Below, piece by piece: positions 54,053 through 64,000 of a stretch of DNA of 64,000 nt. This stretch comes from Microbacterium sp. SL75 (lineage in GTDB: Bacteria; Actinomycetota; Actinomycetes; Actinomycetales; Microbacteriaceae), in the NCBI RefSeq assembly GCF_026625865.1, contig NZ_CP113067.1:3348001-3412000 (forward strand), written 5' to 3'. The position numbers and the translations under genes were made by a program. Under the pieces are notes generated by a model. It searched no databases, was not told the DNA's origin, and saw only the letters and a program-made list of their open reading frames with translations. The first letter of the stretch is position 1. Every line of letters starts with the position of its first letter.

Positions 54053-56578
54053 ATGCCATTTTTCGGTCGAGACCGAGAAAAGCAGGTCACAGATAAAGAC
54101 GTCGCGGCGCACAACGGCTCGGCGAGATTGTTGTTCGGAGAGCCCGGAATCGGCAAGACGCGCCTCGCGTGGGCTATCGCCGAGCGGCACGAGACGGTCG
54201 TCGTGTCGGCGAGCCCGAGTGAGCGCATGTGGCCGTACTCGGGGCTGTCGGCCGCTGCCGCGGCTCTCGGCGGCGCACGGGGAGCCGCCATCGACGGTCT
54301 GCTGGCTCGAGGTCGCGACTGGCCGGAGCACCTGTTCGCCGAGGAGCTGAACCGGACTCTGCATCTGGTCCACGACGAACCCGCCGTCCTCGTCATCGAC
54401 GACCTCGATGAGATGGACAATGCGAGCATCGTCGTGCTGTCCTTCGTGTTCGCCCGCCTGCACGGGACGGGACTCACCGTCCTCGCCACCGCCCGCGAGT
54501 CCGGCGGCCGCCACGACTTCACGGGTATGGCGCATACGCGGATCCGGCGGCTGTCGTTCGACGAGTCCGTCGACCTCGCCCGGTCGGTCCTCGGATCGAG
54601 CACCGCCGCGGCCGTCCTCTACACGATCGCGGAGTTCACGGCGGGCCACCCGGGCACGATCGTCCGTGTGCGGCTGACGCCTCGAGAGGCCGCCGGCGAC
54701 CAGCCCCTTCCCCTCCCCCTGCGCCTGGCAGACGACCGCGCACGTCGTCGCAGGGAAGGGCGTACCGCCGATGACCCGCGAGTGACCTCGCTGCTCGATC
54801 TGCTGGCGGTCGGCCCCGTCTTCAGCTATGACAGGTTGGAACTCGTCGCCGAGGAGCGCGGCGTCGACCTCGAGGCGCTCATCGACGACGGTCTCGTCTC
54901 GGTGCACGACGAGCTGGCCCGCATCGCCGACCCTGCCCGCCGGCTGAGCCACCACGCGGCGCTGTCGACGGAAGAACGTCGTCGACTCCATGTCCGAGCG
55001 GCGCAGGAGCACGAGAGCGCACACCCGGCCACCTACCTGTGGCACACCAGCTTCATCCAGCCCGAGGCGGACCGCGAGGGACTGCTCGTCGCGGCCGTCG
55101 AGCTCGCCCGCGGCGGCGATCACCCCGAGGCGATCGAGTTCGCGGAGAGAGCGCTGGCCAGCGAGATCTCTCCCGAGGTGCGCTGCCGCCACCTCATCGA
55201 CCTCGGCGAGGCCTTGGTGCTGCACGGTCAAGACGTGCAGGGGCGGCACTACCTGAACCGAGCCGGGCACGCGGCCCAGCCGGATCTTCGCGCTCGGGCG
55301 GCTCTCGCTCGGCTTCGCGCCACGGCGGCGATCGAGCACATGATCGACGAGGCCGCCATCGCCGTCGCGGTCGATGCCGACGACGGCCGCACCGCCGAGC
55401 ACGTCCTGTGCGAAAGCGCCCTCCTGCATCTCTGGCACGGCGAACTCGAGCGAGCCCGGGAGCTGATCGCCACGGCGATCGAGCGCGGTGTCGCCACGAC
55501 CGAGACCGCTCTGGTGGCGAGATTGCTGGAAGAGCTGGGGACCGACACCCTCTCGGACCTGACGATCGACACCGGCGTCGCCACGGCGTCGGCGGACGCC
55601 GAGCTGCCGATCGAGCTGGAGTTGCTTCAGTTGAGAGCCGGAGTCATGCGCGAGGAGTACGCCGCGGTGCGCCGCCGGATCCGAGGGCTGCTCGAGCGTA
55701 CCCCCCGCTTGGCGCCGATCTGGCGCGACCACCTCTTGTGCCTGCTCGTCACGAACGAGGTTCGCGGAGGCGACCCCCTCGGAGCACACGAGGCCGTCGT
55801 CGCGTGGCGGCGGGAATGGGTCGACGGTCGCACCGTCGACGTCGCGACGATTCTCGTGCTGGCCTCGGCCGCGGCTCTCGACCCGCTCGCCCCGCAGGCC
55901 GGCGCTCTGGTGCGGCAGGGACGCGAACTGTGCCGGAGAGCAGGGACCCCGACTCTTCTTCCGTGGTTCGCCGTCATCGAGGGGCAGACGGCCCTGGCAG
56001 AGGGCCGCTATGACGACGCCGTCGTATCGCTGCAAGCCGGGCGGGACGCGGTCGAAGCCGACGACCCGGCTCTGCTGCGCGCCGACGCCGACCTGATCGA
56101 GGCGCTCTGGCTCAGCGGACGGCGGGCGCAGGCCCAGCAGGAGCTGCACGGGCTCGAACGCGCGGCCCGACGTTCCCCGCGCCGCTGGACGACGCTGGCC
56201 CTCGCGCGGTCGCGAGCGATCTGCTCCTCGGATCGCGACGCCGTCGGTGCGTTCCGCGAGGCCGAGGCGATCTACCGCACGGACGATGCGCCGCTCGAGC
56301 GCCGCCGTCTCGCGCGCGCTCGCGAGCGCTGCGTCACCGTCCACGAACGCGTCCTCCTGCGCCCCGTGCCCCGCGCCGAGACGCGCAGTCGCTCCCTCAC
56401 CGCCCAAGAGCACGATGTCGTCGCTCTGGTCGAGAAGGGCCTGCGCAACCGCGAGATCGCGGCATCCCTCTTCCTCTCCCTCCGCACCGTCGAGCTGCGC
56501 CTCACCGGGATCTACCGCAAGCTCGGGGTCAGCTCGCGCGCCCACCTCATCGCCACACTGCACAACGCCGCGAGCTGA
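54053..56578 (+). CDS. LAL-type LuxR-family transcriptional regulator with N-terminal ATPase
   Basis: 841 residues. AAA/STAND ATPase at the N-terminus: FGRDREK, Walker A GEPGIGKT (residues 29-36), Walker B AVLVIDDLDEMD; a long alpha-helical TPR/LAL sensor middle region (~300-760); and a C-terminal LuxR HTH: LTAQEHDVVALVEKGLRNRE, then IAASLFLSLRTVELRLTGIY, with KLGVSSRAHLIA. Such large regulators often activate polysaccharide or secondary-metabolite genes in response to nucleotide or carbohydrate signals. Convergent with the GT2 gene and next to the polysaccharide module, so it is a candidate activator; the target is inferred from position. Confidence 0.9.
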   Translation: MPFFGRDREKQVTDKDVAAHNGSARLLFGEPGIGKTRLAWAIAERHETVVVSASPSERMWPYSGLSAAAAALGGARGAAIDGLLARGRDWPEHLFAEELNRTLHLVHDEPAVLVIDDLDEMDNASIVVLSFVFARLHGTGLTVLATARESGGRHDFTGMAHTRIRRLSFDESVDLARSVLGSSTAAAVLYTIAEFTAGHPGTIVRVRLTPREAAGDQPLPLPLRLADDRARRRREGRTADDPRVTSLLDLLAVGPVFSYDRLELVAEERGVDLEALIDDGLVSVHDELARIADPARRLSHHAALSTEERRRLHVRAAQEHESAHPATYLWHTSFIQPEADREGLLVAAVELARGGDHPEAIEFAERALASEISPEVRCRHLIDLGEALVLHGQDVQGRHYLNRAGHAAQPDLRARAALARLRATAAIEHMIDEAAIAVAVDADDGRTAEHVLCESALLHLWHGELERARELIATAIERGVATTETALVARLLEELGTDTLSDLTIDTGVATASADAELPIELELLQLRAGVMREEYAAVRRRIRGLLERTPRLAPIWRDHLLCLLVTNEVRGGDPLGAHEAVVAWRREWVDGRTVDVATILVLASAAALDPLAPQAGALVRQGRELCRRAGTPTLLPWFAVIEGQTALAEGRYDDAVVSLQAGRDAVEADDPALLRADADLIEALWLSGRRAQAQQELHGLERAARRSPRRWTTLALARSRAICSSDRDAVGAFREAEAIYRTDDAPLERRRLARARERCVTVHERVLLRPVPRAETRSRSLTAQEHDVVALVEKGLRNREIAASLFLSLRTVELRLTGIYRKLGVSSRAHLIATLHNAAS

Positions 56579-56692
56579 CGGGAGGGCTGCCGAGCACTCA
56601 CGGCCCCGCGCGAGGCGAGGAGACGCGGCTCGCGCGACGGGGTACGCGGCCCCTTCGACGACAGGGGAAGACGAGGGGGAACCCCGCGCCGC

Positions 56693-57973
56693 TCACGCCA
56701 CAGATTGCCGGGCGGGCCGTATCGCGCGCCGATCGGGGCTGCACCACCGGCCGTCCGAGGGACGCCCCAGGGCCGCCCCGAGTGCGCGCAAGCACTGCAC
56801 CGCGTCCCAGACGCGCATGAGGGGGAACAGCAGCATCCACGCGCGGGGACGCACGCGCGAGATCGCGCACGCGAACGCCGTCATCACGGCATCCACGACG
56901 AAGAATCCCAGCGCGATGGGCCCCACCGGGAACGCGGCCGACACCCATGCCGACACCTGCCCCGCCTCGCCCGAGAGCAGAGGGGCCGTCACCAGCGCCG
57001 CCGTTGTCACGAGCAGGACGGGCAGGATGGCCGTCAGGACGACGCTGGACACCACGGTCTCGAGCGCGAAGACGCCGACCGTCGCCGAGAAGAGCCCCGG
57101 CCGCACACCGTGGCGACGTACCGTCTGCCAGAACCCCAGGCTCCACCGCCGCACCTGCGCTGTGTAGTCGCGGAGGACGGCCGGATCCTGCGTCTCGGCG
57201 ATCGCGCACTCGGGATGGAAGGCGATGCGTCCGAGCCGCTTCGCGTGCACCTCGAACGTCATGTTGAAGTCCTCGATCGACAGGCCTGGAGCGTCGATGT
57301 CGATACGGTCGAGCACGTCGGTGCGGTACAGACTGGCAAACCCCGGCACGATCGCCACGACGTCCGCGGCGCGGGCGGCCTGACCGAACTTGTGCAGGTA
57401 CTGCGTGCAGACGTAGGTGCGCTCACGATAGGCCGTGAGGAATCGTCCCATGCGGGTGGTCGGTGCGTCGGCTGCGGTCGTGGCGCACCCGGCCACGGCG
57501 ACCACACCGTCGTCGGTGAACAGGGGCAGAGCTGTCTGAAGGTAGTCCGGCCGGGGCCGGGAGTCGGCGTCGAGCAGCAGAAGGAGGGGAAAGCGCGACG
57601 GGATGCCGAACCGCTCGAGCCCCGCGCGGATGGCACCGGCCTTCCCACGGTTGGGCGTGAGATCCCACGCGGTGGCCCCCTCGGTACGCGCGCGCTCCAC
57701 CGTCGCATCGCTCGAACCGTCGGACACCACGAACACGTTGCGCGCGGGCACCAGGCGGCACGCGGCCGCGACGGCGTCGGCGATGACGAGCTCCTCGTTG
57801 TGCGCCGCGATCAACACGGCCACCTCGTCTCGGCGGTAGTACATCGACGGCGAGAGCAGGGCGTGCTCCTGCCGACCCTCGGCCAGCAGGCGGCAGATCG
57901 CGGCGAGCCCCCACACCAGGGTCGACACGCCGATCGTGCACACAGCGACCATGACGACGACGGCGGGGGTCAT
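56693..57973 (-). CDS. processive GT2 glycosyltransferase (polysaccharide synthase-like)
   Basis: 426 residues from the ATG at 57973 (MTPAVVVMVA), with GGAGGG five bases before it. One N-terminal helix, a cytosolic GT-A domain and three to four C-terminal helices. Catalytic pattern of processive inverting synthases: Asp85 (VVSDGSSD), DADS (135-138), ED (234-235 in SIEDFNMT) and QVRRW (273-277), the Q-x-x-R-W signature shared with cellulose, chitin, hyaluronan and PNAG synthases. It likely polymerises and extrudes a hexosamine or hexosaminuronate polymer from a UDP-sugar made by the divergent operon. Donor sugar inferred. Confidence 0.88.
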   Translation of the reverse strand: MTPAVVVMVAVCTIGVSTLVWGLAAICRLLAEGRQEHALLSPSMYYRRDEVAVLIAAHNEELVIADAVAAACRLVPARNVFVVSDGSSDATVERARTEGATAWDLTPNRGKAGAIRAGLERFGIPSRFPLLLLLDADSRPRPDYLQTALPLFTDDGVVAVAGCATTAADAPTTRMGRFLTAYRERTYVCTQYLHKFGQAARAADVVAIVPGFASLYRTDVLDRIDIDAPGLSIEDFNMTFEVHAKRLGRIAFHPECAIAETQDPAVLRDYTAQVRRWSLGFWQTVRRHGVRPGLFSATVGVFALETVVSSVVLTAILPVLLVTTAALVTAPLLSGEAGQVSAWVSAAFPVGPIALGFFVVDAVMTAFACAISRVRPRAWMLLFPLMRVWDAVQCLRALGAALGRPSDGRWCSPDRRAIRPARQSVA

Positions 57974-58266
57974 GGCATCCCTCCTCTTCGGGGCGAGGCG
58001 TTCGTGCCGACGGTACGCCGTGCCCAGGCCGAAGACGACCGCAACCGCCCGCACAGCGACGTGCGGTTTCCCGCACTCCGCGGTGCGGTCGGCGGCAACC
58101 CGCATGATGCGGCCGGCGATCTTGACCGTCGCCGGAGCCGCGCCCCAGTGTGATTCCCGGAGCAGCGTCGATACCCGACGGACGCCGTCCCATCACCCGA
58201 ATTCCTCCGAGGGGGCGCCTCATCTCCCCCGAGCCGTCCCCTCGGACCCTGCCTTGGAGGATGAAC

Positions 58267-59598
58267 ATGTCCACTCTCGACATCCGGGCCGACGTGGTCA
58301 CCACGCCGCCGCCCTCTGCTCCCGCCCCGACGCGGACGTTCGACTTCGACGTCGCCATCGTGGGGCTGGGATACGTGGGGCTCCCGACGGCGCTCGCCTA
58401 CCACGCCAGCGGCTCCCGAGTGATCGCCCTCGATGTCTCCACCCGGCGCCTGCGCACCATCGCCGCTCGAGGCGCCGACCTGATCGGATCCGATCGGGAG
58501 CGTCTCGAGACGGCCCTGCGCGCACCTGCCGGATTCCGGCTCACCAGCGACCCCTCGGAGCTCCGTCGCGCCGCCGCGATCGTCGTGTGCGTGCCGACGC
58601 CCGTGGATCATCAGCAGGTGCCGGATCTCACCGCGCTCCGGGCGGCGTGCGCCACCGTCGTCGCCGCCGTCCGGCCCGGGCAGCTCGTCATGCTCACCTC
58701 GACCACCTACGTCGGGTGCACGCACGATCTGGTCGAGATGCCGCTTCGGGAGCGTGGGATGCAGGTCGGCCGCGACGTGTTCGTGACCTTCAGCGCCGAG
58801 CGCATCGACCCCGGCAACATCGGGTTCGCCCAAGAGATCGTCCCCCGCGTCGTCGGTGGAGCCACCCCGCAATGCGAAGAGGAGGGCGCTCGACTCCTCG
58901 CCCGTTACGCCGCGCGGGTGCACCGGGTGTCGAGCCTGGCCACCGCCGAGATGACGAAGCTGCTCGAGAACACCTTTCGCGCCGTCAACATCGCCCTGGC
59001 CAACGAATTCGCCGACATCTGCGGTGCTCTCGACGTGCGTATCACCGAGGTCATCGAGGCCGCGAGCACCAAGCCCTACGGCTTCATGGCGTTCTACCCG
59101 GGCCCGGGGGTCGGGGGCCACTGCATCCCGTGCGACCCGCACTACCTGCTGTGGCAGCTCAAGGCCCTCCACGTCGACGCCGGCGTGATCACCGAGGCGA
59201 TGACCCGCATCGCCGCCCGCCCCCTCCGGGTCGTCGACCGCATCCGCGACGTCCTGGGTCGCGCGGGCAAGGGAACCCTCGGCGCCCGCATCCTCATCGT
59301 CGGTGTCACCTACAAGCCCGACGTCGCCGACCTCCGAGAGTCTCCCGCCCTGGAGATCATCGACCACCTCATCGACGCCGGCGCAGAGGTGCAGTACGTC
59401 GACACGCACGCACCGCACATCCACCTCGACTCGGGGCGGGAACGCGACTCGCTCGCCGACCCCGCGGACTTCCATCCCGACGTCGTGCTCGTGCACACGC
59501 GCCACCATGACAGCGACCTCGGCTGGCTCGACGGCGAAGCCGTGGTCGTCGACGGCACCTACCGCAGCGCCGACATCGCGGGGCGGGTGCTCCTGTGA
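58267..59598 (+). CDS. UDP-N-acetyl-hexosamine 6-dehydrogenase (WbpA/TviB/WecC type)
   Basis: 443 residues from the ATG at 58267; an ATG two codons upstream (58261) directly follows GGAGG, so 58267 has the better spacing. Rossmann motif VGLGYVGLP, UDP-sugar dehydrogenase domains, and catalytic Cys286 in GVGGHCIPCDP. The GHCIP context is typical of UDP-GlcNAc/UDP-ManNAc dehydrogenases; UDP-glucose dehydrogenases usually have GGxCxPKD. It would make a UDP-N-acetylhexosaminuronic acid with 2 NAD+. The C-terminal segment TYKPDVADLRESPALEII matches the same subgroup. First gene of a plus-strand operon. Confidence 0.85.
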   Translation: MSTLDIRADVVTTPPPSAPAPTRTFDFDVAIVGLGYVGLPTALAYHASGSRVIALDVSTRRLRTIAARGADLIGSDRERLETALRAPAGFRLTSDPSELRRAAAIVVCVPTPVDHQQVPDLTALRAACATVVAAVRPGQLVMLTSTTYVGCTHDLVEMPLRERGMQVGRDVFVTFSAERIDPGNIGFAQEIVPRVVGGATPQCEEEGARLLARYAARVHRVSSLATAEMTKLLENTFRAVNIALANEFADICGALDVRITEVIEAASTKPYGFMAFYPGPGVGGHCIPCDPHYLLWQLKALHVDAGVITEAMTRIAARPLRVVDRIRDVLGRAGKGTLGARILIVGVTYKPDVADLRESPALEIIDHLIDAGAEVQYVDTHAPHIHLDSGRERDSLADPADFHPDVVLVHTRHHDSDLGWLDGEAVVVDGTYRSADIAGRVLL

Positions 59599-60659
59599 GC
59601 GGCGTGCCGGTCTATCCGGGCTCCGCGCACTCGCACACGCGCACGCTGGTCACCGGCGGCGCCGGCTTCGTCGGGAGCCACCTCGTCGAGCATCTGCTCG
59701 CTCTCGGCGACGAGGTCGTCGTCCTCGACGATCTCTCCACCGGCTCAGCCCGCAATCTCGCGGGCGTCGCCGACAACCCGCGCCTCGAGATGATCCACGG
59801 CTCGATCCTCAACACCAAGACGGTGGGCTCGGCGATGCGGGGCTGCGACCGCGTGTTCCACCTGGCCGCGGCGGTGGGGGTCAAGCTCATCGTCGAGCAG
59901 CCGCTGCGGGGACTGCGCATCAACATCCACGGCACAGAGAACGTGCTGACCGCCGCCATCGAGCAGCAGGCCTCGGTGCTGATGGTGTCGACGAGCGAGG
60001 TGTACGGCAAGAACACCGCCGACCGCCTACGCGAGGACTCCGATCGCGTGCTCGGCGACCCGCTGCTCTCACGCTGGACGTACGCCGGGGCGAAGGGGAT
60101 CGACGAGGCGTTCGCGAAAGCGTACTGCGACCAGGAGGGCCTGGACGTCTCGATCGTGCGCCTGTTCAACACCGTCGGCCCCCGCCAGACCGGACGCTAC
60201 GGCATGGTGCTGCCGAATCTCGTGGGCCAAGCCCTGCGCGGCCAGCCGCTCACCGTCTTCGGCGACGGGCTGCAGACGCGCTGCTTCTCGGCGGTCGAAG
60301 ACGTGGTTCCCGCGATGGTCGCCATCGAGAGAGATCCGCGCGCCCGCGGCCAGGCCTACAACCTCGGCGGCGCCCGCGAGATCTCGATCTCGGCGCTGGC
60401 GGAGGAGATCATCCGCACCCTGGACAGTCGCAGCACGATCCAGCTGGTTCCCTACGAGCAGGCGTATGCGCCGGGTTTCGAGGACATGCGCCGCCGTGTG
60501 CCCGACAACACCAAAGCGCACGACCTCGTGGGCTACGAGCCGCACACCTCGCTGACCTCGACCATCATGCGCGTCGCCGCCGATCTGCTTTCGCGCGAAC
60601 GACTCGGTTCGGATGCCATGCCGTTGGCCGGTGCCGGCTCCTTTCGGGGGGTTCTCTGA
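59595..60659 (+). CDS. NAD-dependent epimerase/dehydratase (nucleotide-sugar 4-epimerase-like)
   Basis: 354 residues from GTG 59595 (GTGA overlap with the dehydrogenase). Extended SDR: TGGAGFVG (residues 20-27), VSTSEVYG, catalytic Tyr163-x3-Lys167 in WTYAGAKG, and FNTVGPRQTGRYGMVLPN. Similar to UDP-GlcNAc/GalNAc(A) 4-epimerases (WbpP/TviC-like) and UDP-glucuronate decarboxylases; the gene order after the HexNAc dehydrogenase supports a UDP-HexNAcA epimerase. Exact reaction uncertain. Confidence 0.78.
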   Translation: MSGVPVYPGSAHSHTRTLVTGGAGFVGSHLVEHLLALGDEVVVLDDLSTGSARNLAGVADNPRLEMIHGSILNTKTVGSAMRGCDRVFHLAAAVGVKLIVEQPLRGLRINIHGTENVLTAAIEQQASVLMVSTSEVYGKNTADRLREDSDRVLGDPLLSRWTYAGAKGIDEAFAKAYCDQEGLDVSIVRLFNTVGPRQTGRYGMVLPNLVGQALRGQPLTVFGDGLQTRCFSAVEDVVPAMVAIERDPRARGQAYNLGGAREISISALAEEIIRTLDSRSTIQLVPYEQAYAPGFEDMRRRVPDNTKAHDLVGYEPHTSLTSTIMRVAADLLSRERLGSDAMPLAGAGSFRGVL

Positions 60660-62473
60660 TGTGCGGGATCACCGCCTATCGCGGACCATCCTCAGCCGCA
60701 TCGCGCGCGCGAAGCGCCCTCGAACGCCTGGAGTATCGGGGCTACGATTCCGCGGGCATCGCCGCCCGGCACCTCGATGGCACGACGCTGCACGTGCGCA
60801 CGCTCGACGGCGTGGCCTCCCTGACCGACGCGGTGCATTCGGATGAGTCGGGGACGGATGCCACGACCGCAGCGATCGGCCACACGCGCTGGGCCACGCA
60901 CGGCGAGGTGAGCCGACGCAATGCCCATCCGATCGAGGACTGCAGCGGCCGGCTCTTCGTGGTGCACAACGGGATCGTCGACAACGCCGATCTGCTGCGC
61001 GCGCATCTCGTCGCCGGCGGACACCGCTTCGCCACCGACGTGGACACCGAGGTGATCGTGCACCTCGTCGAGCAGGCCCTGCGCCCGGGGGTGGGTCTCG
61101 GTGACGCCCTCGCCGACGCGGCCCGGCACCTCGAGGGGTCCTGGGCTGTCGTCGCCCTCGACGCGCGCACGGGGGCCCTCGCGGGCACCGCTCACGGCTC
61201 CCCCCTCATCTTCGCCGAGGGTGAGGAGGGGGTGTACTTCGCGAGCGACGTCGGCGCGATCACACCCGTGGTGGAGGCGTTCCGCGTGCTGGAGGACGAC
61301 GACGTCGTCGAGGTCGATGCCGAGGGGATGCGCTGGCACCGTTCCGGCGGCAGCTGCCGTCCGCGGGGGCTGTGGCCGGTGCCCCAGACGGCCTATCTCG
61401 CCAGCAAGGGGCGCCACCGCGACCACATGGGCAACGAGATAGACGAGCAGCCCGCTGTGGCTCGCCGGGTGCTGGAGGTGCTCACCCCGGGTATCGCCGA
61501 CGGGCTGCTCTGGCGAGGGATGGGCCTGGCCCCGCTCGACGAGATCGACCGCGTCACCGTCCTCGGTTGCGGGACCTCGCTGCACGCGGGGCGGGCCGTC
61601 GCGCAGGTCTTCTCGCGTCTGGGCGGTCTTCCCACCCGGACCCTCGTCGCGAGCGAGGCGGCGCACGAGGTCTGGGAGCCGCGGACCCTCGTGATCGCGC
61701 TCAGTCAGTCCGGGGAGACGGCCGACGTGTTGAGGGCCCTCGACGGGCTGCCCGAGGGTGTCGCCACGGTGCTGGCACTGACGAACAATCCCTCCTCGAC
61801 GCTCGCGCGACGCGCCGACGCCACACTGGACTGCCTCGCCGGCCCCGAGATCGGCGTTGCGGCGACGAAGACCTTCATCGCGCAGGTGCTCACGGGGGCC
61901 TGCCTCGCCCTATCGGGGCTCTCCGTGTCGTCGCGAACCGACGCGATCGCGTTCGAGAGCGACCTGCGGGCGATGGCCGCGACCCCCGACGCGCTCTCGG
62001 CGGCGCTGGACACCTGGCGGGAGCCGGCCGCGAAGATGGCCGGCGAGTTCGTCGACGCGCCCGGCTTCCTCTTCCTGGGGAGGGGCTCCGGCCTCGTCTA
62101 TGCGGCCGAGGGCGCCCTCAAGCTCAAGGAGCTGTCGTATCGCTGGGCCGAGCACCAACCGGCGGGAGAGCTCAAGCACGGCCCGCTCGCCCTGGTGGAC
62201 ACCGGCACCCCCGTGTTCGTCGTCGACAACGGCGATCCTCGACTCGACGTCGACATCGCCGAGATCCTCGCCCGCGGGGGGCGCGTGCTGCGCGTCGGTG
62301 AGAGGGTGCTGAACGTCGGCGGTCTGCCCATGCACCTGCCGCGGACCGGTCCCTCGTGGGGGCCGCTCGAAACGGTGGTACCCCTGCAGATGTTCGCGCG
62401 AGAGCTCGCGCTGCGGCTGCGTCGCGACGTCGACAAGCCGCGCAATCTCGCCAAGTCGGTGACGGTCTCATGA
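60659..62473 (+). CDS. glmS: glutamine-fructose-6-phosphate aminotransferase (isomerising)
   Basis: 604 residues from the ATG at 60659, overlapping the epimerase stop (TGATG). Class II glutaminase with nucleophile Cys2 (MCGITAYRGP), HTRWATHGEVSRRNAHP; two SIS domains (LGCGTSLHAGRAVA, LSQSGETADVLRAL, LGRGSGLVYAAEGALKLKEL) and the C-terminal DKPRNLAKSVTV. Makes glucosamine-6-P, the precursor of UDP-GlcNAc. Placed inside a polysaccharide operon, it is probably a dedicated second copy beside a housekeeping glmS elsewhere; the second copy is not visible here. Confidence 0.95.
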   Translation: MCGITAYRGPSSAASRARSALERLEYRGYDSAGIAARHLDGTTLHVRTLDGVASLTDAVHSDESGTDATTAAIGHTRWATHGEVSRRNAHPIEDCSGRLFVVHNGIVDNADLLRAHLVAGGHRFATDVDTEVIVHLVEQALRPGVGLGDALADAARHLEGSWAVVALDARTGALAGTAHGSPLIFAEGEEGVYFASDVGAITPVVEAFRVLEDDDVVEVDAEGMRWHRSGGSCRPRGLWPVPQTAYLASKGRHRDHMGNEIDEQPAVARRVLEVLTPGIADGLLWRGMGLAPLDEIDRVTVLGCGTSLHAGRAVAQVFSRLGGLPTRTLVASEAAHEVWEPRTLVIALSQSGETADVLRALDGLPEGVATVLALTNNPSSTLARRADATLDCLAGPEIGVAATKTFIAQVLTGACLALSGLSVSSRTDAIAFESDLRAMAATPDALSAALDTWREPAAKMAGEFVDAPGFLFLGRGSGLVYAAEGALKLKELSYRWAEHQPAGELKHGPLALVDTGTPVFVVDNGDPRLDVDIAEILARGGRVLRVGERVLNVGGLPMHLPRTGPSWGPLETVVPLQMFARELALRLRRDVDKPRNLAKSVTVS

Positions 62474-62556
62474 CCGATCGCGCCCCCGACGAACGCGCGT
62501 CCGACGACGCCCCGGTGCGTCGACGGACGGCCCCTCTCACCCGAAAGGACTCCCCC

Positions 62557-64000
62557 ATGATCCAACGACACGCCGCCCCCGGGCGGCGACGGATTCGGGC
62601 CCTGGCGGTGCTCGCCGCCGTCGCCGTGGGAACGGGCGGGCTCATCGCCACCTCGCCCCCGGCATCGGCGCCGGCGCAGGCCGCGACCCGGACGATCGTC
62701 AGCCTTACTTTCGACGACGCCAACGCCGACCAGCTCAATGCTCTCCCCTCCCTACAGGCCAACGGCATGAAGGGGACGTTCTACGTCAACTCCGGCTTCA
62801 TCGGCGCCGCGGGGCACATGACCCGAACCGATCTGACGAACCTGAAGAACGCGGGCCATGAGCTCGGCGGCCACACCGTCAACCACCCCGACCTCGCGCA
62901 GGTGAGCATCGACGAGGCCACCCGGCAGATCTGCACCGACCGGAAGAACCTCACGTCGTGGGGGTTCGCGGTCCGCAGCTTCGCGTACCCGTTCGCATCC
63001 GCTGACGCCGCGGTCGAGAAGGCGGTGGCCAACTGCGGATACAACAGCGCACGACTTCTCGGCGACATCCGCAGCCGCTTCGGGTGCCCCGAATGCGCCT
63101 ACGCGGAGTCCACCCGACCCGCCGACAAGTACGCACTGAAAGCCCTCGATCAAGTCGACGCCACCTGGACGCTCGACGATCTCAAGGCCGGGGTCACCAA
63201 CGCCGAGAAGAACGGCGGTGGTTGGGTGCCGTACACCTTCCACGACATCTGCGACGACGCCTGCAGCGACCTCGCGGTGACCACGTCGCTCTTCGGACAG
63301 TTCACCGCGTGGCTGAAGACCCGCCAGTCGGCCGGCACGGTGGTCAAGACCGTCGGCGAGGCCATCGGCGGCGCCACCAAGCCGGTGGTCGACGGCCCGT
63401 CGGTGCCCGCGGTGACAGGGTCCGCCAACGGCATCGTCAACCCGAGCATGGAGACCGGTGCCCCCGACTGCTGGATGAGGGGCGGATACGGCGACAACTC
63501 ACCGGCCTTCAGCACGGGGTCTCCCGCCCATACGGGCAACATCTCGAGCGCTATCGCGATGTCGAACTACGTCGACGGAGACGCCAAGTTGCTGCCGCAG
63601 TTCGACCTCGGGCAGTGCTCCCCCACCGTGACGCCCGGCACGTCGTACACGCTTCGCGAGTGGTACCAGTCGAGCGGAGTGACGCAGTTCGCCGTCTATC
63701 TCCGTTCGACGAGCGGCTCGTGGTCGTACTGGACCTCCAGCCCCTGGTTCGGCTCGGCGTCGGACTGGACGCAGGCCGATTGGACGACCGCGGCCATCCC
63801 GGCCGGGTACAGCGGCATCAGCTTCGCGCTGACGATCTTCGGCAACGGCACCCTCCGAGCCGACGACCTGCAGCTCTACGACAGCGCCGGTGCCCCGCCC
63901 CTGGCTCCCGCCACCGTGACCGCTCCCTCGTTCGCCCCGATGACCGCGACACCCCCTCAGGGACCGGTGGAGAAGGTCCACCCCACCGAAAGCGACATCA
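62557..64000 (+). CDS. secreted polysaccharide deacetylase (NodB/CE4) with C-terminal beta domain, partial
   Basis: Start ATG 62557 (MIQRHAAPGRRRIRALAVLA), with AAAGGA eight bases upstream and a signal peptide (Arg-rich n-region, Ala-rich core, cleavage near ASA/AQA, ~38-43). An in-frame ATG at 62470 would add 29 residues ahead of the signal and is less likely. CE4 motifs: TFDDANADQ (Asp53, Asp54), HTVNHPDL (His106, His110) and SFAYPFASAD. Residues ~285-450 form a carbohydrate-binding-like beta domain (VNPSMETGAPDCWMRGGYGD, trimmed; LRADDLQLYDSAG). The gene runs off the right edge. It would remove N-acetyl groups from an extracellular amino-sugar polymer; substrate likely the polymer of the upstream genes. 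Confidence 0.87.
   Translation, partial: MIQRHAAPGRRRIRALAVLAAVAVGTGGLIATSPPASAPAQAATRTIVSLTFDDANADQLNALPSLQANGMKGTFYVNSGFIGAAGHMTRTDLTNLKNAGHELGGHTVNHPDLAQVSIDEATRQICTDRKNLTSWGFAVRSFAYPFASADAAVEKAVANCGYNSARLLGDIRSRFGCPECAYAESTRPADKYALKALDQVDATWTLDDLKAGVTNAEKNGGGWVPYTFHDICDDACSDLAVTTSLFGQFTAWLKTRQSAGTVVKTVGEAIGGATKPVVDGPSVPAVTGSANGIVNPSMETGAPDCWMRGGYGDNSPAFSTGSPAHTGNISSAIAMSNYVDGDAKLLPQFDLGQCSPTVTPGTSYTLREWYQSSGVTQFAVYLRSTSGSWSYWTSSPWFGSASDWTQADWTTAAIPAGYSGISFALTIFGNGTLRADDLQLYDSAGAPPLAPATVTAPSFAPMTATPPQGPVEKVHPTESDI

Follow-up and report, generated by a model that had tools for sequence, protein, structure and literature searches.

Poly-N-acetylglucosamine (PNAG) systems pair a synthase of glycosyltransferase family 2 (GT2; PgaC/IcaA) with a secreted de-N-acetylase of carbohydrate esterase family 4 (CE4; PgaB/IcaB) and, to our knowledge, require no dehydrogenase or short-chain dehydrogenase/reductase (SDR). 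In the Vi antigen locus, an N-acetylhexosamine (HexNAc) 6-dehydrogenase (TviB) adjoins an SDR (TviC). According to one report, a UDP-N-acetylglucosamine (UDP-GlcNAc) 6-dehydrogenase and UXNAcS of Bacillus cereus NVH 391-98 made UDP-N-acetylxylosamine (UDP-XylNAc) in engineered Escherichia coli, and the sugar was passed to flavonoids (PMC5078965); another proposes IdnS2/IdnS3 as the same enzyme pairing for incednine (PMC11284099). Here we describe a gene module of Microbacterium sp. SL75, whose genome is a single contig of 3.44 Mb. It lies at the right end of a window of 64,000 nucleotides (NZ_CP113067.1, positions 3,348,001 to 3,412,000), runs just past it, and consists of genes for a LAL-type LuxR regulator, a GT2 protein, a nucleotide-sugar dehydrogenase, an extended SDR, a GlmS paralogue, a CE4 enzyme and a lipoprotein. 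The module, which is common to many actinobacteria, probably serves to make, export and trim an extracellular polymer of a rare five-carbon amino sugar and not of a uronic acid.

Each of these systems resembles the module in part. The likeness to PNAG systems is the combination of a GT2 synthase with a secreted CE4 enzyme; however, the PgaC_IcaA model scores the module GT2 at only 46.4 bits, far below the PNAG synthase cut-off of 422.3. The likeness to Vi antigen is the HexNAc 6-dehydrogenase beside an SDR, but the SDR here is of the predicted decarboxylase class and not TviC-like, and the GT2 is synthase-type. A preliminary description of the locus had drawn the Vi analogy, which is weak: the TviC model scores 90 bits for a cut-off of 760, and TviB 162.5 for 592. 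Compared to hyaluronan synthase, the donors are predicted to differ, a HexNAc-type 6-dehydrogenase replaces the UDP-glucose dehydrogenase, and the GT2 has CE4 and lipoprotein partners. The UXNAcS and IdnS3 systems, compared by description, pair a UDP-GlcNAc 6-dehydrogenase with an enzyme that decarboxylates a UDP-N-acetylhexosaminuronic acid (UDP-HexNAcA), as the module is predicted to do; in those systems the sugar goes to small molecules, whereas the module adds a processive-type GT2, a CE4 enzyme and a lipoprotein. In the open-access literature, outside which most subscription literature lies, we found neither a paper on the module nor a xylosamine-based bacterial polysaccharide.

Distribution and insertion site of the module

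When named genomes were scanned with the SDR, 195 relatives emerged, the best 80 of which were kept and fall into 78 loci; the nearest orthologues among them are from a Microbacteriaceae metagenome-assembled genome and Microbacterium testaceum strains. A module locus was defined as one with the SDR, the dehydrogenase and at least one of CE4 and GT2 (module genes and lipoprotein being counted by BLAST thresholds), and 47 of the 78 loci are of this kind, a recurrence that marks the gene combination as more than chance. They belong to Microbacterium, Herbiconiux, Curtobacterium, Cryobacterium, Pseudoclavibacter, a Corynebacterium-like bacterium, Aeromicrobium, Arsenicicoccus, Arthrobacter, Prescottella and Sciscionella. 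Only L065 lacks the GT2 and only L026 the CE4 gene, both loci being short. Gene calls in the loci come from a crude caller, with some genes cut or fused. One Prescottella defluvii record (L094) shows SDR, GlmS, CE4 and lipoprotein matches each in two pieces, through decay or sequence errors.

Within the genus, the GT2 gene is present in 13 of the 119 sampled genomes. The distance between pgl and tpiA is 11.7 kb in SL75 and 11.5 kb in a second GT2-bearing genome (G093); among 10 GT2-free genomes of the genus, it is 0.72-0.80 kb in six and >100 kb in four. In the GT2-free genome G007, the pgl and tpiA products are 91% and 95% identical to the window's proteins. On this evidence, the module is a variable insertion (or loss) between pgl and tpiA. 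The carriers include the leaf isolates Microbacterium Leaf151, Curtobacterium Leaf261 and Arthrobacter Leaf337; therefore, the module might, as a speculation, bear on surface attachment.

Proteins of the glycoside hydrolase family 18 (GH18) type, all of one cluster, are encoded after the SDR in two Prescottella loci (L050, L070) and one Arsenicicoccus locus (L058), the L050 copy having been checked by Pfam. GH18 enzymes require N-acetyl groups, and these neighbours would fit an N-acetylated chain.

The SDR and its paired dehydrogenase

The four best relatives of the SDR among solved structures, by sequence, are UDP-glucuronate decarboxylases. Its RRVPD aligns with QRRPD/QRKPD and HRKPS, the R-x-P motif that has a catalytic role in UDP-xylose synthase (UXS) and ArnA; in alignments of picked rows, R-x-P is absent from that place in the LegB, RmlB, GalE and 4-epimerase references. 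The SDR also carries STSEVYG, and Glu occupies the TSE place in 73 of 79 aligned rows, including 46 of the 47 module loci. The carboxylate-binding Ser of UDP-glucuronic acid (UDP-GlcA) 4-epimerase is replaced by Glu in UXS, UAXS and ArnA, a position that matters for decarboxylation according to a published study (PMC7984243).

In four trees on picked rows (26 of the 79 in the first, 17 in the second and third, 14 in the fourth), the module SDR clusters with UXS, and with ArnA where included, at supports of 99/95, 97/95, 100/97 and 98/95. The UXS references are named by annotation and ArnA is from E. coli K-12; the 100/97 tree included four LegB references, and the 98/95 tree included relatives paired with CalS8-like dehydrogenases. 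In the fourth tree, the module SDRs form their own clade of 14 rows (99/98), whose exact sister group is less sure (support 83-86). By these sequence criteria, the SDR is assigned to the UDP-hexuronate decarboxylase class. It has the Glu, the R-x-P motif and the tree position in common with UXS and ArnA, but differs in its separate clade and in its pairing with a HexNAc-type and not a UDP-glucose dehydrogenase. Altogether, the evidence points to a UDP-HexNAcA decarboxylase, namely a UDP-XylNAc synthase, with the predicted reaction from UDP-N-acetylglucosaminuronic acid (UDP-GlcNAcA) to UDP-XylNAc.

The preliminary description had read the SDR as 4-epimerase-like, in the manner of TviC/WbpP. 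A UDP-HexNAcA 4-epimerase would supply the GT2 for an N-acetylhexosaminuronate or mixed HexNAc/HexNAcA polymer that is then de-N-acetylated, and the HexNAc-type dehydrogenase, the CE4 enzyme and a GT2 resembling hyaluronan synthase, an enzyme type that uses uronic acid and HexNAc donors, would all suit such a product. The SDR, however, has Glu where 4-epimerases have Ser, scores 90 bits with the TviC profile, and in all four trees falls outside the UDP-GlcA 4-epimerase and GalE branches, the references there being GalE and two Pseudomonadota enzymes annotated as NAD-dependent epimerases, which we take to be UDP-GlcA 4-epimerases (the trees included neither WbpP nor TviC). We set the 4-epimerase aside as unlikely. 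Because the SDR has the decarboxylase Glu and R-x-P and groups with decarboxylases, N-acetylhexosaminuronate is no longer the best reading of the product; of the amino-sugar/uronate polymer first proposed, the amino-sugar polymer module stands, whereas the uronate made through 4-epimerisation probably does not.

The top NCBIfam match of the SDR is LegB (TIGR04180, 165.5 bits), with STSEVYG in common, which raises a LegB-like 4,6-dehydratase that would act on UDP-GlcNAc independently of the dehydrogenase and yield a 6-deoxy-4-keto sugar. This score lies far under the cut-off of 475, and four LegB rows that do exceed it branch together (100/100) apart from UXS, ArnA and the module SDRs, with no R-x-P at the corresponding place. 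In addition, no 4-aminotransferase was recognised among the module's genes in the window. We dropped this candidate, which is the most improbable of those weighed here.

The dehydrogenase carries a GGHC active-site Cys motif (GPGVGGHCIPCDP) and a Lys/Asn motif (AEMTKLLENTFRAVN). It sits on the HexNAc side of a tree split at 100/100, together with all five HexNAc-type references and opposite both Ugd references; of all these references, E. coli WecC and Ugd alone are classical, the rest being named by annotation. On this split we reject a Ugd, and it upholds the earlier placement with WbpA/TviB/WecC-type enzymes, away from UDP-glucose dehydrogenases; the second dehydrogenase of the genome (L002) sits on the Ugd side. 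Only the general NDP-sugar dehydrogenase model TIGR03026 is passed (349 bits against a cut-off of 189.8), the scores being below the equivalog cut-offs for WecC (200/459), TviB and the archaeal N-acetylmannosamine (ManNAc) dehydrogenase (212.5/750); UDP-glucose-type equivalog models give 46-106 bits, all under their cut-offs. We assign it by sequence to the WbpA/TviB/WecC group but to no named equivalog, and the predicted reaction is UDP-GlcNAc to UDP-GlcNAcA. An argument for GlcNAc over ManNAc from a lack of WecB was dropped, since an above-cut-off WecB is present.

Beyond the module, a HexNAc-type dehydrogenase is close to the SDR on a Streptomyces plasmid (L107), in Haloplanus (L159, by motif) and in L075, L081 and L088; no dehydrogenase match was found within the fetched stretch in 24 of the 31 non-module SDR loci. 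A WecA/MraY-type transferase follows the SDR in L075, L083 and L085, and a polysaccharide deacetylase in L074; WecA-type enzymes use N-acetylated UDP-sugars. In the three former loci (Planctomycetota, Desulfarculales), the gene directly after the decarboxylase-class SDR is a fusion of PF00953 (WecA/MraY-type) and PF13727 (CoA_binding_3), at L075:11031-12887, L083:10988-12760 and L085:10985-12742. In the archaeal Haloplanus plasmid locus (L159, 7064-15008), a homologous SDR is grouped with a HexNAc-type dehydrogenase, a further SDR and glmS, which is the second instance of this combination.

Synthase, partner proteins and proposed pathway

In an alignment of the window GT2 with 32 orthologues (from 54 usable references), D135-A136-D137, E234-D235 and Q273..R276-W277 are invariant, which confirms the DAD, ED and Q..RW among the motifs D, DAD, ED and QVRRW read previously. 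The protein has the DxD, ED and QxxRW motifs and the C-terminal membrane helices of processive synthases. As phmmer against PDB sequences returned nothing at E 0.1, a fold comparison was used instead; in structure, the GT2 model matches hyaluronan synthase best and cellulose and chitin synthases less well. From its motifs and modelled fold, the GT2 is probably a processive-type synthase. In a plasmid collection searched at E 1e-15, the sole GT2 relative was in a stretch of a Mesorhizobium plasmid (L160:1-4106; 41.5% identity), where it overlaps a DUF3131 protein gene; the annotation of the part shown includes no further module gene.

GlmS scores 492.6 bits with TIGR01135 (cut-off 418) and starts with MCGITAY, its N-terminal Cys intact. 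It is present in 29 of the 47 module loci and absent from 18, so that "dedicated", as glmS was first described, overstates the case, and an obligatory GlmS is rejected. The genome's other glmS (L007:1501-3340, G000:C1:1873147-1874986) matches in two reading frames that overlap, the break falling near query residue 500; it is either frame-shifted or mis-sequenced, and if the frame shift is real, the module GlmS may be the sole intact one.

The CE4 protein, with a signal peptide identified by eye, matches the NodB domain PF01522 at 68 bits (cut-off 23) and has the metal motifs TFDD and HTVNH; an HfsH-like model gives 69 bits, under its cut-off of 400. A secreted CE4 enzyme makes the de-N-acetylation envisaged earlier plausible. 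The strict motif pattern is matched by 38 of the 55 CE4 hits, which come from 45 loci; among the other 17, 12 keep H-[ST]-x-x-H and the remaining five, all extra copies in Arthrobacter, may be inactive, as judged from their lack of this motif. The Arthrobacter loci L060-L064 have two or three CE4 copies each.

A LuxR homologue was found by BLAST in 31 of the 47 module loci. Arthrobacter L060 has two tandem LuxR-LALs that BLAST did not count and Pfam confirmed, and three tandem genes of LuxR-LAL size surround the module in L060, L062 and L063. By Pfam, the regulator's position is taken by an AcrB-type transporter in Pseudoclavibacter L067 and by another GT2 in Curtobacterium L051. The LAL LuxR protein probably regulates the module.

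The lipoprotein, which the earlier gene list missed, has no Pfam match and is only tentatively a double-psi barrel (expansin/GH45/barwin-type). It has a GAGxDVSP motif with an invariant Asp, and 22 copies were used in its analysis. It is encoded in 45 of the 47 module loci, the contigs of the other two (L026, L041) ending before its place, and is missing from all 31 non-module SDR loci, of which 12 span less than 16 kb. Among 299 Microbacteriaceae genomes, 30 carry the GT2 gene and 28 the lipoprotein gene; all 28 are GT2 carriers, with both genes on the same contig and at most 9 kb apart (hypergeometric 2.3e-37, uncorrected for kinship). Across the phylum it is rare, being encoded in 3 of 396 genomes, one of which is that of the window.

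In the best-supported model, to which we give about an even chance, a synthase-dependent extracellular polysaccharide module makes an XylNAc-containing polymer that is later de-N-acetylated. GlmS would raise the UDP-GlcNAc supply, the dehydrogenase would oxidise UDP-GlcNAc at C6 to UDP-GlcNAcA, and the SDR would convert it to UDP-XylNAc by C4 oxidation, decarboxylation and re-reduction. The membrane GT2, resembling hyaluronan synthase, would polymerise UDP-XylNAc, alone or with another UDP-HexNAc, and move the chain across the membrane; outside the cell, the CE4 enzyme would strip N-acetyl groups and the lipoprotein would bind or cut the chain, with the LAL LuxR protein governing expression. 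The gene content and protein families, the linkage and conservation of the genes, their insertion site and the catalytic motifs are observed; the substrates, the decarboxylated product, the composition of the polymer, its export, the role of the lipoprotein and the regulation are inferred. A bolder and rather doubtful version is a widespread actinobacterial XylNAc homopolymer, chitin-like but of an amino pentose without C6, made by a dedicated UDP-XylNAc pathway and the hyaluronan synthase-like enzyme, partly deacetylated to a cationic polymer and processed by a new barrel-fold family of lipoproteins (glycoside hydrolases or expansin-like looseners). Alternatively, the SDR is a decarboxylase that leaves part of the UDP-HexNAcA, and the chain alternates XylNAc with GlcNAc or HexNAcA. 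Hyaluronan synthase alternates two donors, and a single GT2 with a similar fold would allow such a chain, but the four-base overlap of the dehydrogenase and SDR genes suggests coupling, and we hold this mixed product to be improbable.

Several observations qualify these readings. A non-synthase mannosyltransferase ties with hyaluronan synthase as structural match of the GT2, so the earlier separation from non-processive lipid glycosyltransferases, favoured by the hyaluronan synthase match, is not fully closed. In the SDR trees, ArnA and GalE are on long branches, and the TSE motif also occurs in LegB. Ten neighbours tested beside wider-kin SDRs include three WecA-type transferases and one polysaccharide deacetylase, the other six being an ABC transporter, Wzz/kinase, ATP sulfurylase, NusG, FkbM methyltransferase and a protein with no match. 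The GT2 carriers G641 and G692 give no match to the lipoprotein, although both have the dehydrogenase, the SDR and a divergent CE4. Distant lipoprotein homologues (31-37%) occur in G273 and G128, where the stretches fetched contain none of the module genes; the wider lipoprotein family is therefore independent of the module.

Should the SDR prove to be a UDP-HexNAcA decarboxylase, a compact set of genes would be available as the source of a pentosamine polymer that differs from chitin, hyaluronan, PNAG and Vi antigen. The tightly linked, Pfam-less lipoprotein family would then have a context, and donor choice by a GT2 synthase could be given a clean test.

Gene organisation

The LuxR and GT2 genes are convergent, and the GT2 gene and the dehydrogenase operon are divergent. 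The stop of the dehydrogenase gene overlaps the SDR start as GTGA (four bases), and that of the SDR gene overlaps the GlmS start as TGATG. All six genes named in the preliminary description lie at the places and in the order it gave, with the divergent layout and overlapping spacing it had noted.

Genes of the module in Microbacterium sp. SL75, numbered from the first position of the window
Feature	Coordinates	Strand	Basis or remark
LAL-type LuxR regulator	54053..56578	+	Pfam AAA_16, TPR_19 (TPR), GerE
GT2, predicted processive-type polysaccharide synthase, membrane-bound	56693..57973	-	motifs and fold comparison
Nucleotide-sugar dehydrogenase, predicted UDP-HexNAc 6-dehydrogenase group	start 58261 or 58267, end 59598	+	tree, GPGVGGHCIPCDP, AEMTKLLENTFRAVN
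Extended SDR, predicted UDP-hexuronate decarboxylase class (UXS/ArnA-like)	59595..60659	+	STSEVYG, YxxxK, RRVPD, trees
GlmS paralogue (glutamine--fructose-6-phosphate transaminase)	60659..62473	+	TIGR01135, MCGITAY start
Secreted CE4 de-N-acetylase (predicted) with extra C-terminal region	~62557, stop at window-equivalent 64008	+	PF01522, TFDD, HTVNH
Lipoprotein	window-equivalent 64005-64754 (G000:C1:3412005-3412754, L003:11006-11755)	+	gene just past the window

Further genes had been suggested beyond position 64000, and there is one, the lipoprotein gene, which overlaps the CE4 stop. To its right, on the opposite strand, lie secG, tpiA, pgk and gap (identified by eye), and on this reading the lipoprotein gene is the only module gene on that side. 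Second copies of the lipoprotein gene occur in Arthrobacter/Aeromicrobium (L061:19055-19804, L054:2029-2727, L056:2373-3005), and partial matches lie at the ends of L060, L062, L063 and L064.

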